Assembly: GCF_020880695.1 (NCBI RefSeq) | Contig: NZ_JAJIWO010000010.1 | Span: 62,001 to 126,000, forward strand | Origin: Mucilaginibacter sp. UR6-11 | Lineage (GTDB): Bacteria > Bacteroidota > Bacteroidia > Sphingobacteriales > Sphingobacteriaceae | Direction of reading: 5' to 3' | Length of the DNA: 64,000 nt | Shown: positions 22,494 to 27,933 of the stretch, piece by piece | Layout of the letters: each line of letters begins with the position of its first letter | Numbering within the stretch: the first letter of the stretch is position 1 | Notes under the pieces: model-generated | Seen by the model: only the letters and a program-made list of their open reading frames with translations | Databases searched by the model: none | What the model was told of the DNA's origin: nothing | Made by a program: the position numbers and the translations under genes

Positions 22494-24491
22494 TTACTTT
22501 ACTTTCAAAACGTTGTTCTTCCGGTTCACGTCCGGCAACGCATTATCCGGGTCGATGGTAACCGACTCGGCCGGTGTAGTGGTGTTGATCGTAAAGGTGG
22601 TTGCTTTATTTTGCAGCCAGGTTTCAACCGGCAGATACAGGCGTTGTTTGCTGCCATTTTTCAGTTTCACTTCAACCGTAAAAGGCATAGCCATTGGCTC
22701 TTTGTTAACCACCGTTACCTGTATGCCGTTTTTGGGGTCGCCTTCAACATACCTGGCGGTCGCCAGGGCCAGGTCAAGGCTGTAATTATTATAGTACCAG
22801 CCTTTCCAGAACCAGGACAGGTCCTCGCCGGCGCCGTTCTCCATCGACCTGAAGAAATCGGCAGGCTGCGGGTGTTTAAAGGCCCACTTATGAATATAAT
22901 TTCTGAAAGCATAGTCAAACCTGTCTTTGCCCAAAATTTGCTCGCGCAGCAAAATCATACCAAATGCCGGTTTGAAGTAGGTGATGGGGTGCCGGTACTT
23001 TTCTGAGATAGCATCAGGCGCAGTCATGATGGTAGGCGCTTCAGGATCAATGATGGTGGGGATGATCTCATCTGCGGGGTTACCGCCGCCCGGCGCATAT
23101 TCGCCATCGCGTTTGGGTGCGTATTCGCCTTTATTAAATGCATCCGAAGCGTAAACGTCTATAAAGGTATTAAAGCCTTCGTCCATCCAGGCATAGCGCC
23201 GTTCGTTTGAGCCCACGATCATCGGGAACCAGTTGTGGCCAATTTCGTGCGCAGTGACCCAGAACAGCTCCTTGCCTTTATCCGTGATCCCGTCAAACAG
23301 GATACCCGGGTATTCCATGCCGCCTGCAATCCCGGCCTCATTAACCGCACAAGGGTAAGGGTATACAAACCACTTTGCCGAGAAATGCTCGATGGCGCCT
23401 TTCAGGTATTCGGTCGACCGTCCCCAGGCGTCATCGCCTGCGCTCTCTACCGGGTAAACAGACATGGACAGCGACTTTTTACCGCCGGGCAGGTTGATTC
23501 TTGCTGCATCCCATACAAACGCTTTGGAGGCTCCAAAAGCGACGTCACGGGTATTGAACATTTTAAAATGCCAGGTCAGGGTACCCTTGTTTACCGGGCG
23601 TGACGAAGCCTGCGTCACTTCGGCTGGCGTTCTTATCATAATGGTTTTGTCGCTATTGCGGGCCTGGTTATAACGGCTAACCTGAGTAGTGGTTAAAACC
23701 TCAGCGGGGTTAACCAGTTCGCCTGATCCGGCTACGATCATATCCCAGGGCACGGTTACGCTATAGTCGATATCGCCATACTCGCAATAAAACTCGCCGC
23801 TGCCCAAAAACGGCAGCGTATCCCAGCCCTGTGCATCATCATAAACACACATGCGGGGGAACCATTGGGCAATTTCATAGATCTTGCCGTTTTTGGTATC
23901 GGTGTAATCGGTACGGCCGCCAAAGGCGCCCGGGATAGTATAATGATATTTAATTAAAATGTTGATCCTGCCGCCATTTGCCGCAATTACCCTGGGCAAA
24001 CGGATCTGCATACGGGTATCGGTAACCACATAGGGCACCTTTTCTATTTTACCGTTTTGGGATAAACTAACCGATTCTATCTGGTAACCGGTAGTATGTT
24101 GATCAGCTTTTGGTTGGTTGCCGGTTACAAAGTTTGAGCGTGCGTCTTTCTTGTAGGTATTCTGGTCCATCTGCAGCCATAGATATTGCAAAGCATCGGG
24201 GCTGTTATTGGTGTAGGTGATATTTTCATCGCCGGTTAAGGTTTTGGTAACCGTGTCAATAGCAGCTTTGAGGATATAATCCGCCCGGTTTTGCCAGTAC
24301 TTCGGACCGGGATCGCCATTTACAGCATGAAACTCATTGCCTTTTTCGGTATGGAAAGACGGTGAAAACAGGCCTGACGGAATGTAGTTCGAGCTTATGG
24401 TATCATTTGAGGTATTGCGGGGCTTTCTTTGCGCTTGTGTGGTAATAGCAAATAAGGCAGCGGCGCCTAACAAGGTAAATTTTAGATTCAT
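22494..24491 (-). CDS. M1 family zinc metallopeptidase, secreted
   Basis: A 665-residue exported gluzincin aminopeptidase-like enzyme. The signal peptide ([20 protein letters not shown]) is followed by the M1 N-terminal beta-saddle and the catalytic domain with HEIGHNW (zinc ligands and catalytic Glu) and the third ligand Glu in [11 protein letters not shown]. The GAMEN-type exopeptidase motif appears as AGGMEYPG, which supports aminopeptidase action on the free N-terminus. The C-terminal part is beta-rich. It probably degrades peptides in the periplasm. Monocistronic by position. Confidence 0.93.
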
Positions 24492-24587: not shown

Positions 24588-25352
24588 ATGCTACCTATAT
24601 TCGTACAAATGTTCCCTTTCAATTTACATATAGGCAGGGCAGTCGTGCCAATCCATTTTATTTGTGAAACCCTGTCCTATATAGTTGGTTATCAATTTTA
24701 TGTTTATCTAAGAAGCAAGACTGTTGATAAAATAAGTGAAAGCAATAGGTTTATTATTTTTATCGGCGCGGCAACGGGCGCTTTAGTTGGATCACATCTT
24801 GTGGGCGTTTTAGAGAACCCACAGTTGCTGTCTGATCTGAATTTAATGTACTTGATGGGAAATAAAACCATCGTAGGAGGTATGTTGGGTGGGCTTATAG
24901 GCGTTGAGTTGGTAAAAAAGAAAATTGGTGTTACTGTTTCGTCAGGTGACCTGATGGTTTATCCTTTAATTTCAGCCATGATCATTGGCAGATTGGGGTG
25001 TTTCTTTGCAGGATTGGAAGATGGTACCTATGGCATAGCCACATCGTTACCATGGGCGATTAATTTTGGCGATGGCGTGCCCAGGCATCCCACCAATTTA
25101 TATGAGATATTGTTCTGGTTGATTTTATGGGTTTCGTTAGCCGCGTTTGAAAAAAGACACGCCTTTTCTGACGGTGCCCGGTTCAAGGTATTTTTATCAA
25201 GCTATCTTCTCTTTAGATTTTTTATTGAGTTTATTAAACCGGATTATTTTTTTAGTTTCGGGATGTCAGTAATACAACTGGTTTGTTTATCTGGTATTGT
25301 ATACTATTATAAAGTTTTTATTTATCCTAAACACTTATTGAAGAATGCCTGA
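24588..25352 (+). CDS. Lgt-like membrane protein (prolipoprotein diacylglyceryl transferase paralog)
   Basis: A polytopic membrane protein of about 254 residues related to Lgt, which moves diacylglycerol from phosphatidylglycerol to a lipoprotein cysteine. Related parts are VGGMLGGLIGVE (Lgt loop HGGLIG), IIGRLGCFFAGLEDGTYG (Lgt GRxGNF signature) and RHPTNLYEILFW. The His before GGLIG, important in E. coli Lgt, is Leu here, and the NFxNxExxG pattern is replaced by CFFAGxxDG, so the acceptor is probably not an ordinary lipoprotein. ATG 24588 or 24609 are possible starts. It overlaps the radical SAM gene by eight bases. Confidence 0.82.
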   Translation: MLPIFVQMFPFNLHIGRAVVPIHFICETLSYIVGYQFYVYLRSKTVDKISESNRFIIFIGAATGALVGSHLVGVLENPQLLSDLNLMYLMGNKTIVGGMLGGLIGVELVKKKIGVTVSSGDLMVYPLISAMIIGRLGCFFAGLEDGTYGIATSLPWAINFGDGVPRHPTNLYEILFWLILWVSLAAFEKRHAFSDGARFKVFLSSYLLFRFFIEFIKPDYFFSFGMSVIQLVCLSGIVYYYKVFIYPKHLLKNA

Positions 25353-26745
25353 ACGCCCGTATATCTATTATGATTTTACCCTGAGCATCTGCTCAACCTG
25401 TTTAAGGCGCGTTGACGCTAAAATAGTATTCCAGGACAATAATGTATACATGCTTAAAAATTGTAAGCATCACGGTTTTGAAAAAGTGCTTATCGCCACT
25501 GATATTGAATATTATAAAAATTGTCGCAACTACGCCAAGCGAAGTGAGATACCGCTTAGGTTTAATACTAAGACGCATTTTGGTTGTCCGTATGATTGTG
25601 GTCTTTGCCAGGATCACGAGCAGCACTCATGCCTTACCGTTGTTGAAGTAACCGATAGATGTAACTTAAGCTGTCCAACATGTTATGCTATGTCATCTCC
25701 CAGTTATGGGCGTCATCGGTCGCTCGGGGAAATAGAGCAGATGTTTGATGTTATTGTTGCTAACGAAGGAGAGCCAGATGTGGTACAGATAAGTGGCGGA
25801 GAGCCAACCGTACACCCCCAATTTTTTGAGATCCTGGACATGGCCAAGACAAAGCCTATCAAACACCTGATGTTAAATACCAACGGTGTAAGAATAGCTA
25901 AAGACGAAAGCTTTGTAAAAAGACTGGCTGGCTACATGCCCGATTTTGAAATCTATCTGCAGTTTGATTCCTTTAAAAAAGAGGCGCTTGAGCAATTGCG
26001 CGGCGAAGATTTGCGCGATATAAGAATCAAAGCTTTAGAGAATTTAAACAAATATTCCTTATCAACGACACTGGTTGTAACTCTGCAAAAAGGATTAAAT
26101 ACTGACGAAATAGGTAAAATTATTGAATATGCGCTTAGGCAACCCTGTGTTCGCGGGGTAACGTTTCAACCCACACAACAAGCCGGAAGGCTTGAAAATT
26201 TTAACCCGGAAACAGACAGATACACGCTAACTGAGGTGCGCTCTGCCATATTAGAGCAAACGTCCATATTTAATGCCAATGATCTGATCCCGGTACCTTG
26301 TAATCCGGATGCGCTTGTAATGGGATACGCGTTAAAAATAGACGGGCGGGTTTTCCCGTTAACGCGAATGATAAATCCCGACGATCTGCTTGATAATTCA
26401 AAAAATACGATAGTTTATGAGCAGGATGAAAAACTGAAAGGGCATTTATTAAATATGTTTAGTACAGGTAATTCGGTAGATAAAGCAAACGATCATTTAA
26501 AATCATTAATGTGCTGCCTGCCTGATATTGATGCACCAAACCTGGGCTACGATAATTTGTTCAGGGTGATTATTATGCAATTTATCGATGCGCAAAATTT
26601 TGATGTACGGGCCATCAAAAAATCATGTGTGCATATTGTTAATAAGGATATGAGTATAATACCTTTTGAAACGATGAATATTTTTTACCGTGATGATAAA
26701 ATTTCATATTTAAACCAGCTAAAAACAGAAATGGATGCCGTATGA
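25345..26745 (+). CDS. Radical SAM protein resembling tetraether lipid synthase (Tes family)
   Basis: A 466-residue multi-cluster radical SAM protein. N-terminal cysteines (Cys16, Cys19, Cys40, Cys60) could form a rubredoxin-like site. Next comes GCPYDCGLCQDHEQHSCL (Cys81, 85, 88, 96) for an auxiliary cluster, then the radical SAM motif DRCNLSCPTCYA (Cys106, 110, 113) and SGGEP (150-154). Further cysteines are at 319, 390, 391 and 428. This layout matches archaeal Tes (MJ0619), which joins lipid tails by carbon-carbon bond formation, and its bacterial relatives. It overlaps both neighbours, an Lgt-like protein and a small membrane protein. A lipid substrate is therefore plausible but inferred. 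Confidence 0.85.
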   Translation: MPERPYIYYDFTLSICSTCLRRVDAKIVFQDNNVYMLKNCKHHGFEKVLIATDIEYYKNCRNYAKRSEIPLRFNTKTHFGCPYDCGLCQDHEQHSCLTVVEVTDRCNLSCPTCYAMSSPSYGRHRSLGEIEQMFDVIVANEGEPDVVQISGGEPTVHPQFFEILDMAKTKPIKHLMLNTNGVRIAKDESFVKRLAGYMPDFEIYLQFDSFKKEALEQLRGEDLRDIRIKALENLNKYSLSTTLVVTLQKGLNTDEIGKIIEYALRQPCVRGVTFQPTQQAGRLENFNPETDRYTLTEVRSAILEQTSIFNANDLIPVPCNPDALVMGYALKIDGRVFPLTRMINPDDLLDNSKNTIVYEQDEKLKGHLLNMFSTGNSVDKANDHLKSLMCCLPDIDAPNLGYDNLFRVIIMQFIDAQNFDVRAIKKSCVHIVNKDMSIIPFETMNIFYRDDKISYLNQLKTEMDAV

Positions 26746-27008
26746 CCGAACAATTGAATAATAACGAGCCATCTCAAACTACCCGTGCAATGCACATCGT
26801 CGGTATCAATCTCGGTCTGTTGGTTGCTTATTTTTTATTGAGCAGGTTTACAGACGGAGGAATTTTACTATATGCCATGCTGATCTTTGTTCATGTAGTG
26901 ACCTGCATATTCACCGCTTTGGTAAAGAGAAATTGGGCTTGGTTTTTTAGTTGTTTGCTGGTGCTGTTAATCGGTTTTTCAACTTGCGTGAATTTTCTGA
27001 AAATGTAA
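26742..27008 (+). CDS. Small membrane protein, third gene of the Tes-like operon
   Basis: An 88-residue protein of no recognised family with three predicted hydrophobic helices (about residues 18-36, 41-62 and 66-84) and a polar N-terminus. Its ATG overlaps the radical SAM stop by four bases, giving translational coupling, and it ends two bases from the convergent ppx-like gene. The context suggests an accessory or anchoring role for the upstream lipid-type enzymes; no independent evidence for function. Confidence 0.75.
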   Translation: MTEQLNNNEPSQTTRAMHIVGINLGLLVAYFLLSRFTDGGILLYAMLIFVHVVTCIFTALVKRNWAWFFSCLLVLLIGFSTCVNFLKM

Positions 27009-27009
27009 A

Positions 27010-27933
27010 TCAATTCATTAACTCTGCCAGCACGCCTTCTTTTAAAGAATAGGTTGACATGCTGACATCGCTGATATCCAGCCGGTGAATAATAAAGCGG
27101 GTGATCAATGATGCCACCACGATCATATCTATCCGGATGGGGATAATGCCTTTTGTATTTTCCCTTTCGGCGTGTGATGAAGCTATCAGATTATTGGTTA
27201 CTGCAATCAATTCGCCAAAATCAAAATCATAGTTTTTTATATCCAGGCTAAAGGTGTTTCCCTTTTGCAATTCTATCACCTCAGCAAAAGTTTCAAATGC
27301 GCCTGACGAACCGATAAGTTTGCTAACCGGATATTTTTTGGTTACTGCTATCAGGCTGATCAGCTGTTCTTCCAGGTAGCTGTTAAGCGCGCCAATTGCG
27401 TCGGCAGGGATAGGGTCAGTGCGGTGGAACTTGTCCATTAGCCTGGCTGCGCCAATTTCAAAACTTTGTTTCCAGAGCATGCTATGGTTATTGCCTACTA
27501 TAAACTCAACACTCCCGCCACCGATATCCATGATCAGTGATGTTTGGTCTGACAGGCCGCCTGCCAGCTTTACGCCCTGGTAGATGTAAGCTGCTTCCTG
27601 TTCGCCATCTATCAGCTCAATGCAGATACCGGTTTTTTCTGCAATCTCGTCAATAAACTGCTGTCCGTTTGATGCGTTGCGTATGGCGGAGGTGGCTACG
27701 GCGATAACGGACTCTACGCCGTTTTTCGTAATATTATCTTTGAACTTTTGCATGGTAGCAATACCCCGTGCATAAGCGGCGGGCTGTATAACGCCTTTAT
27801 TTATACCACCTTCGCCCAGCTTTACCGAATCGTGTTCATGGACAATGGCTTTATAGTCGGTGGCGTTGCCTTCGGCAATCAGTAAGTGAAAGGTATTGGT
27901 GCCGAGGTCCATCACGGCAATGCGTTTGCTCAT
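27010..27933 (-). CDS. Ppx/GppA family phosphatase
   Basis: A 307-residue ASKHA-fold phosphatase acting on inorganic polyphosphate or pppGpp. The phosphate-1 motif is IAVMDLGTNTFHLLIAEG at the N-terminus. The adenosine/phosphate loop is LIMDIGGGSVEFI (about 137-149), with GSSGAFETFAEV further on. It is the short form without the C-terminal HD domain, as in many Bacteroidota exopolyphosphatases, so polyphosphate versus pppGpp specificity cannot be decided. It is convergent with the Tes-like operon. Confidence 0.93.
   Translation of the reverse strand: MSKRIAVMDLGTNTFHLLIAEGNATDYKAIVHEHDSVKLGEGGINKGVIQPAAYARGIATMQKFKDNITKNGVESVIAVATSAIRNASNGQQFIDEIAEKTGICIELIDGEQEAAYIYQGVKLAGGLSDQTSLIMDIGGGSVEFIVGNNHSMLWKQSFEIGAARLMDKFHRTDPIPADAIGALNSYLEEQLISLIAVTKKYPVSKLIGSSGAFETFAEVIELQKGNTFSLDIKNYDFDFGELIAVTNNLIASSHAERENTKGIIPIRIDMIVVASLITRFIIHRLDISDVSMSTYSLKEGVLAELMN

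Follow-up and report, generated by a model that had tools for sequence, protein, structure and literature searches.

A stretch of 64,000 nucleotides from the soil bacterium Mucilaginibacter sp. UR6-11 (contig NZ_JAJIWO010000010.1, positions 62,001 to 126,000; hereafter the window) carries on its forward strand an operon of three genes. The first (24588–25352) encodes a paralog, 254 residues long, of Lgt (phosphatidylglycerol:prolipoprotein diacylglyceryl transferase), assigned from its Pfam LGT match, an AlphaFold2 (AF2) model and conserved residues. The second (25345–26745) encodes a radical SAM enzyme of 466 residues related to Tes and TrsS, as judged from NCBIfam profiles, an AF2 model and a tree. 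The third (26742–27008) encodes a small membrane protein of 88 residues with about three helices, a candidate lipid acceptor or substrate. The open reading frames (ORFs) overlap by 8 bases between the first and second genes and by 4 bases between the second and third, as the initial annotation of the window had correctly described. Because the long ORF upstream (22494–24491, reverse strand) is divergent and the one downstream (27010–27933, reverse strand) is convergent, the unit apparently consists of these three genes. A sigma-70 scan gave 13 promoter-like sites against 9.5 expected, and a terminator scan gave 3 terminator-like sites against 2.2 expected. TAnnTTTG, the −7 promoter pattern of Bacteroidota, matched 61 times in the window against 74 expected and never between 21516 and 25060. 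No promoter was assigned from either pattern.

The closest relatives of the window radical SAM enzyme were found in Mucilaginibacter (91% identity), and a search of other genomes for the three-gene neighbourhood, which the initial annotation had proposed, recovered the arrangement in dozens of genomes, a recurrence beyond chance. An Lgt-like ORF lay inside 76 of the 80 named loci (split into two ORFs in L079). Two of the four loci without it (L024, L046) begin at a contig edge, and for the other two (L045, L080) a paralog with 50 and 51% identity is encoded away from the locus. Of six genomes checked in this way, five had the paralog, and in those of L045, L080, G034 and G272 it is separate from the enzyme gene. 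Among 395 genomes of the phylum, 31 contained both the radical SAM enzyme and the Lgt paralog, 362 contained neither, and one was discordant in each direction (Fisher p 9e-44, uncorrected for relatedness). The paralog was counted above 100 bits, a level reached in 32 of the 40 genomes with a match; the other eight scored 49–55 bits. The 32 enzyme-positive genomes are those left after dropping G066 and G302, whose matches (L129 and L130, the former scored against NCBIfam) fall on the Tes branch; with these included, 31 of 34 enzyme-positive genomes have the paralog. The pairing of an Lgt paralog with a Tes-like enzyme, suggested initially from this one locus, thus holds in 31 of 32 genomes whichever gene is taken first, and the enzyme is rarely without its Lgt partner. 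As for the two discordant genomes, the LGT match of G096 adjoins the enzyme but reaches 51.8 bits, and G017 has an orphan paralog nested in the trio clade. This orphan (L167, G017:C10:163754-164455) sits on a long branch in a genome with no radical SAM match at 1e-20, and is perhaps a relic or a re-used enzyme.

The small protein follows the same distribution. In 37 genomes of the genus, its profile and the enzyme occurred in the identical 22 genomes and the small protein in none of the other 15, and each match lay about 1.5 kb or less from the enzyme. One enzyme-positive relative (G012, L120) has a small protein of a different sequence family. The spacing is also compact: the Lgt-like gene and the enzyme gene overlap by 8 bases in 40 of 96 loci and by 11 bases in 17 of 96, and the small gene follows within 30 bases of the enzyme in 96 of 107, these counts omitting eight loci in which the Lgt-like gene is further off or the overlap exceeds 60 bases. 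The alternative order Lgt–small protein–enzyme was seen in L116 and L118–L121.

The window Lgt-like protein matched Pfam LGT (PF01790) with 86.2 bits (cut-off 24.9) and missed the equivalog cut-offs of TIGR00544 (40.7 of 118.9 bits) and NF000778 (49 of 334 bits). Its AF2 model (predicted local distance difference test, pLDDT, 93.2) superimposed on E. coli Lgt (5azb) with Z 13.4 and a root-mean-square deviation (rmsd) of 4.7 over 238 residues, the next row having Z 5.4. Work on E. coli Lgt proposes that Arg143 and Arg239 carry out catalysis and that the lipobox peptide binds at the HGGL motif, which contains His103 (PMC4728403, excerpts). The equivalents of R143, E202, Y235, R239 and Gly154 were conserved in 108 of 108 Lgt paralogs, and the equivalent of Glu243 was Glu or Asp throughout; the 108-row sets used here, like the 117 loci considered below, include a few genomes drawn twice (those seen were L010/L135, L061/L142 and L069/L145). 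In the window protein, Arg143 corresponds to Arg135 in the signature GRLGC (24987–25001, forward strand), where Cys138 takes the place of Asn146, and Arg239 corresponds to Arg210 (25215–25217, forward strand); all three residues are invariant (108/108). The place of His103 is taken by Val96 (24873–24875, forward strand), and this position was V in 64, M in 25, L in 12, I in 4, A in 2, T in 1 and His in none of the 108 paralogs. Because the catalytic residues and the fold are retained and His103 is absent, the paralog looks like an Lgt whose donor chemistry has been kept and whose acceptor recognition has been altered.

The window paralog is one of three LGT-family proteins in the genome. The two others (L001, G000:C17:23839-24630; L002, G000:C16:43056-43757) read GRIGCQ...GDGDWG, have Tyr at the His103 place and are presumably the housekeeping copies. 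The initial annotation had pointed to a missing His before GGLIG and to an altered NF signature. There is indeed no such His, but E. coli His103 aligns with Val96 in TIVGGM and not with the Leu before the later GGLIG. Likewise, GRLGC does stand for GRLGN, but the change is not specific to the paralog, being shared with the GRIGCQ of the other two genes. The paralog thus has its family, fold, Arg143/Arg239 and glycerol-pocket residues in common with Lgt, and differs from it in falling below the equivalog cut-offs of the families it matches, in its hydrophobic His103 site, in being additional to two other LGT genes, and in a likely acceptor Cys that is C-terminal rather than following an N-terminal signal peptide.

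This likely acceptor is the third protein. A small protein of two or three helices lies beside the enzyme, mostly downstream, in nearly every locus. The window small protein gave no BLAST match at 1e-3 outside Sphingobacteriaceae-type loci and no match above cut-off in Pfam or NCBIfam, and nine others gave none in Pfam. In the 26 of 37 Mucilaginibacter-type loci with all three genes, the median pairwise identity was 91% for the radical SAM enzyme, 74% for the Lgt-like protein and 39% for the small protein. The columns invariant in 20 chosen small-protein rows were Met1, Asn23, Tyr30 and Cys82. Cys82 lies six residues from the C-terminus in the lipobox-like sequence GFSTC (26973–26987, forward strand), at the predicted outer end of the last helix. 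The last helix of small proteins that do not match that of the window also ends in a lipobox-like manner (GFSTC, GLGICG, SGISCG and GFSLCS, for example), and apparent exceptions to the C-terminal Cys were cleared up by reading frames.

Small proteins were also selected in a manner blind to Cys: the criteria were size, hydrophobicity, strand and position, and Cys was treated as Ala in the scoring. Candidates were obtained in 108 of 117 loci, and 120 of 120 had a Cys within the last 21 residues, against 15 of 50 other small two-helix ORFs in the same loci. A first background (43 of 84 with Cys) was contaminated by tandem small-gene copies; in the final one (n = 50), same-strand ORFs starting at most 1300 bases downstream were removed. 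Of 34 further same-strand small ORFs within this distance, 28 have a C-terminal Cys and resemble tandem copies. In the Chitinophaga loci L052, L054, L056 and L082, a second downstream ORF lacks the C-terminal Cys and the first copy has it. Of the nine loci without a rule-based candidate, four (L012, L125, L128, L155) have a Cys protein that was recognized by eye and missed by the rule, L021 and L117 are cut off by a contig edge, L129 and L130 belong to the Tes branch, and L134 has neither partner nearby.

The surroundings of the Cys were compared in 75 representatives (below 50% identity, duplicates removed; 28 of the 148 source sequences had been added for having a Cys). Position −4 was Gly in 80% of them, −3 was Phe in 56%, and −2 was Ser or Gly in 85%; at −1, 63 of the 75 had Thr, Val, Ser or Ile, and 3–18 residues followed the Cys. 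Helices, K/R and lipoboxes were counted by simple home-made rules. K and R made up 177 of 975 residues (0.182) before the helix and 34 of 623 (0.055) after the Cys, and because positive residues are denser before the last helix, the Cys is predicted to lie outside, where Lgt works. The protein differs from a bacterial lipoprotein in that Cys82 of 88 is not within an N-terminal signal peptide of signal peptidase II (LspA), an enzyme with a residue preference at −1. Gly, Ala or Ser stood at −1 in 14 of the 75 representatives versus 25 of 38 N-terminal lipoboxes, the latter collected by a rough rule that also admits false ones; the window protein has Thr. Because Gly, Ala or Ser is so seldom found at −1, ordinary cleavage by signal peptidase II at the Cys is unlikely for most of the small proteins.

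The near-invariance of the C-terminal Cys makes the small protein, regarded initially as an accessory, the best candidate acceptor of the Lgt paralog. The presence of the small gene with the enzymes in nearly every locus examined would also suit a regulatory or anchoring role, in which the radical SAM enzyme and the Lgt paralog are held together at the membrane by the small protein, whose Cys would form a disulfide or act as a cluster ligand within the complex; the Cys is nearly invariant in a clade whose enzyme lacks the Tes-typical PFC cysteine. We consider such a role very unlikely. The positive-inside pattern places the Cys outside, away from the enzyme clusters; tandem copies and fast divergence would be unusual for a subunit; and the enzymes of L128, L154 and L155 retain PFC and are still accompanied by a Cys protein. 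Tandem arrays of small proteins behind one enzyme were observed at L028:7407-8851 (about five ORFs), G404:C67:360-1634 (four matches) and G401:C7:18783-20200 (six matches, two of which are overlapping fragments).

The radical SAM enzyme is related to Tes, or GDGT-MAS (MJ0619; 7tol/7tom), the tetraether lipid synthase with which archaea make lipids that span the membrane. A phmmer search matched GDGT-MAS 7tol at 5.6e-62, and the AF2 model, of modest confidence (pLDDT 69.5), superimposed on 7tom with Z 36.3 and an rmsd of 3.3 over 411 residues; the best other protein had Z 16.7. The rubredoxin-site pattern and the N-cluster ligands C73, C77 and C80 have been described for Tes/GDGT-MAS (PMC9433317, excerpts). 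The corresponding pattern C-x2-C-x20-C-x2-H is present in the window enzyme as C16, C19, C40 and H43 (each Cys in 108 of 108 enzymes, His43 in 107). CPYDCGLC (25585–25608, forward strand) contains C81, C85 and C88, which according to the alignment are the ligands of the auxiliary [4Fe-4S] cluster at the N-terminus, and is followed by H91, which aligns with a His in the CxxxCxxC-plus-His arrangement of L129; all four residues are invariant (108/108). The radical SAM CX3CX2C motif reads CNLSCPTC (25660–25683, forward strand; C106, C110 and C113, 108/108). CPYDCGLC, the motif DRCNLSCPTCYA and the reading PFE, all named in the initial annotation, were confirmed.

The enzyme nevertheless differs from Tes in several respects. 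It scored 263.5 bits against the Tes profile (NF045702), under the cut-off of 450, and its best NCBIfam match was TrsS (NF045646), with 321.7 bits over residues 12–452 and likewise under the cut-off, 490. The C-terminal-cluster region (26623–26670, forward strand), the cysteines of which are presumed cluster ligands, reads SCVH...PFE in the window; CC and PFC are present in the two aligned Tes rows and 7tol, and SC and PFE in the trio clade. In the window enzyme, S427, followed by C428, and E442 thus stand for two Tes cysteines. Met439 and Tyr459 of Tes are kept in archaeal homologs (PMC9433317, excerpts); Met411 aligns with the former and Ile431 with the latter. Conversely, C96, C268, C319, C390 and C391 are invariant in the clade (108/108) and absent from the two Tes rows, although C96 and C319 are common to other aligned non-Tes relatives. 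Cys390-Cys391 (26512–26517, forward strand) are possible replacement ligands, and a haloarchaeal relative (L153) also aligns Cys-Cys there. A tree of 35 rows placed the 25 trio rows from Bacteroidota on one side of a branch (support 100/99), apart from the two Tes rows; support for its deeper order is weak, and several of the rows are long. Of what the initial annotation had proposed, a Tes-like enzyme is supported; membership in Tes itself is not, given the profile score and the changed cysteines of the C-terminal-cluster region. Its suggestion that PFE may mark a differing cluster fits these data; PFE is no quirk of one gene, as P440-F441-E442 are invariant in 36 aligned members (chosen from the 80 named loci plus the window).

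TrsS is a selenoprotein family, and an in-frame stop read as selenocysteine was considered and dropped; the one internal stop inspected (L012) is TAA, not TGA. It interrupts the radical SAM gene of Mucilaginibacter frigoritolerans (L012:6001-7398), where the Lgt paralog and the small gene look open.

GDGT-MAS has been observed with phospholipid tails bound (PMC9433317, excerpts), Tes joins phospholipid tails, and branched tetraethers have been suggested as products of bacterial Tes homologs (PMC8941075 and PMC11868695, excerpts). The operon might on these grounds serve free-lipid synthesis, producing an unusual membrane lipid, coupled tail to tail for instance, with the small protein as a structural or lipid-presenting component whose Cys serves structure or metal binding. 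This appears rather improbable to us: an Lgt paralog with intact diacylglyceryl-transfer residues would be superfluous, the small protein keeps little beyond its lipobox-like end, a patchy unit within one genus (22 of 37 genomes) is odd for a bulk lipid trait, and the Tes-typical residues are altered.

The small protein itself may instead be the substrate of the enzyme, in a maturation like that of ribosomally synthesized and post-translationally modified peptides (RiPPs). The radical SAM enzyme would modify it, for example by forming a thioether or C–C link at its tail or C-terminal Cys, and a lipid anchor would be supplied by the Lgt paralog before or after this step, giving a radical-modified lipopeptide or lipoprotein. 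Precursor peptides are typically encoded by small, fast-evolving and often duplicated genes next to a radical SAM gene, and the partner genes here are likewise small, fast-evolving and often tandem. DAG-RiPPs, which are RiPP–lipoprotein hybrids, occur in Bacteroidota by means of other enzymes (PMC12636315, excerpts). The tail beyond GFSTC varies in length (3–18 residues) and in sequence, with no evident core peptide, and the nearest structure is that of a lipid enzyme (Z 36.3, versus 16.7 for peptide maturases). We regard maturation of this kind as somewhat unlikely.

The reading we prefer, tentatively and at a little under an even chance, is that the trio is a dedicated system in which the C-terminal Cys of a mini-protein is lipidated and the lipid is remodelled by radical chemistry. 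The Lgt paralog would move diacylglyceryl from a phospholipid onto the Cys thiol at the periplasmic end of the last helix, so that the Cys end would act as a C-terminal version of the lipoprotein lipobox. With Thr, Val or Ile at −1 in most cases, ordinary signal peptidase II would probably not cut, and the lipid would remain on the intact multi-helix protein. The Tes-like enzyme would act on the hydrocarbon tails of either the donor phospholipid or the lipid bound to the protein; its chemistry would most likely be hydrogen abstraction combined with the formation of C–C or C–S bonds. Lipidation of the small protein by the paralog is probable in our estimation from the sequences. Given that step, action of the radical enzyme on lipid tails is about as probable as its opposite; lipidation is the likelier and better-supported of the two, and radical tail chemistry is the part of the proposal that we hold most weakly.

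Several observations weigh against this proposal. Conservation of the Cys alone does not prove lipidation, and 6 of the 34 downstream same-strand small ORFs lack it at the C-terminus; four of these are the Chitinophaga-type second copies, and in L047 and L049 a Cys lies at a more internal position. The paralog lacks His103, a residue essential in E. coli Lgt, the other LGT genes of the genome having Tyr there. The genome of L046 gave no Lgt-like match, and in G034 the enzyme and the Lgt paralog lie apart, with no small Cys protein in either flank. In the radical SAM enzyme, cysteines of the Tes C-terminal-cluster region are replaced. Finally, the enzyme should face the cytoplasm and the Cys the periplasm, so action on the bound lipid would require the enzyme to reach into the membrane or the lipid to flip.

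Variants of the trio with differing small proteins and the same C-terminal Cys were found at about 40% radical SAM identity (L126, L127). In L125–L127, the order is enzyme, ICMT-family methyltransferase, DUF4395 protein, Lgt paralog and small Cys protein. The two additional genes between the radical SAM enzyme and the Lgt paralog lie at L126:5883-6951 and L127:4784-5858 (and in L125); the ICMT family (PF04140) was matched in L126 and L127, and DUF4395 (PF14340) in L126, with L125 and L127 alike by eye. An ICMT-like enzyme beside a C-terminal-Cys protein is reminiscent of CaaX processing. Variants also occur in Actinomycetota. A plasmid of Mycobacterium branderi (L154) encodes an LGT-family protein, two small proteins ending in GGLCTGLNPADYAG and VGVCTGLNPAMYTGA, and the enzyme; Nonomuraea (L155) is alike, its ORF with the Cys end being called at 368 residues. 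In L128, the Cys-end protein has 140 residues. The radical SAM enzymes of L128, L154 and L155 are without the CPYDCGLC cluster cysteines and keep the C-terminal CC...PFC, and their Lgt paralogs branch apart from those of Bacteroidota. Enzyme relatives at L151:4989-7357 (Mycolicibacterium) and L153:4980-7143 (haloarchaeal plasmid) adjoin a methyltransferase, not an Lgt paralog. The same GTDB phylum also contains a Tes above the cut-off (493.8 bits; L129:4864-6321 in G066), in whose 11 kb of examined surroundings neither an Lgt nor a small-protein neighbour occurs; it is a candidate maker of real tetraether-type lipids.

The excerpts of PMC8941075, PMC9433317 and PMC11868695 leave open what bacterial Tes-like enzymes do. 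The trio was not described in the literature searched by title and abstract, TrsS neighbourhoods excepted, where a related one may be in print. The nearest concept found is that of DAG-RiPPs (PMC12636315, excerpts). These ribosomal products are likewise short, occur in Bacteroidota too and enter lipoprotein processing, but they do so with an N-terminal signal peptide, through the ordinary lipoprotein pathway and with MNIO enzymes. The trio differs in its dedicated Lgt paralog, its Tes-like enzyme and its C-terminal Cys.

These considerations bear on how the family is read, as Tes-like homologs of this type should not be taken as evidence of tetraether lipids. In a more far-reaching form of the proposal, which we consider unlikely, the trio would be a cross-phylum system in which the radical SAM enzyme links the acyl tails of the C-terminal-Cys lipid with one another or with a lipid in the other membrane leaflet; a protein would then be stapled to a macrocyclic or membrane-spanning lipid. 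To our knowledge, bacterial diacylglyceryl transfer occurs solely at the N-terminal Cys of exported lipoproteins. If the lipidation and remodelling proposed here are correct, the trio would provide a second diacylglyceryl route, directed to the C-terminal Cys of a multi-helix mini-protein and equipped with a built-in radical lipid enzyme, and bacterial Tes-like enzymes would gain a concrete partner and a testable substrate.

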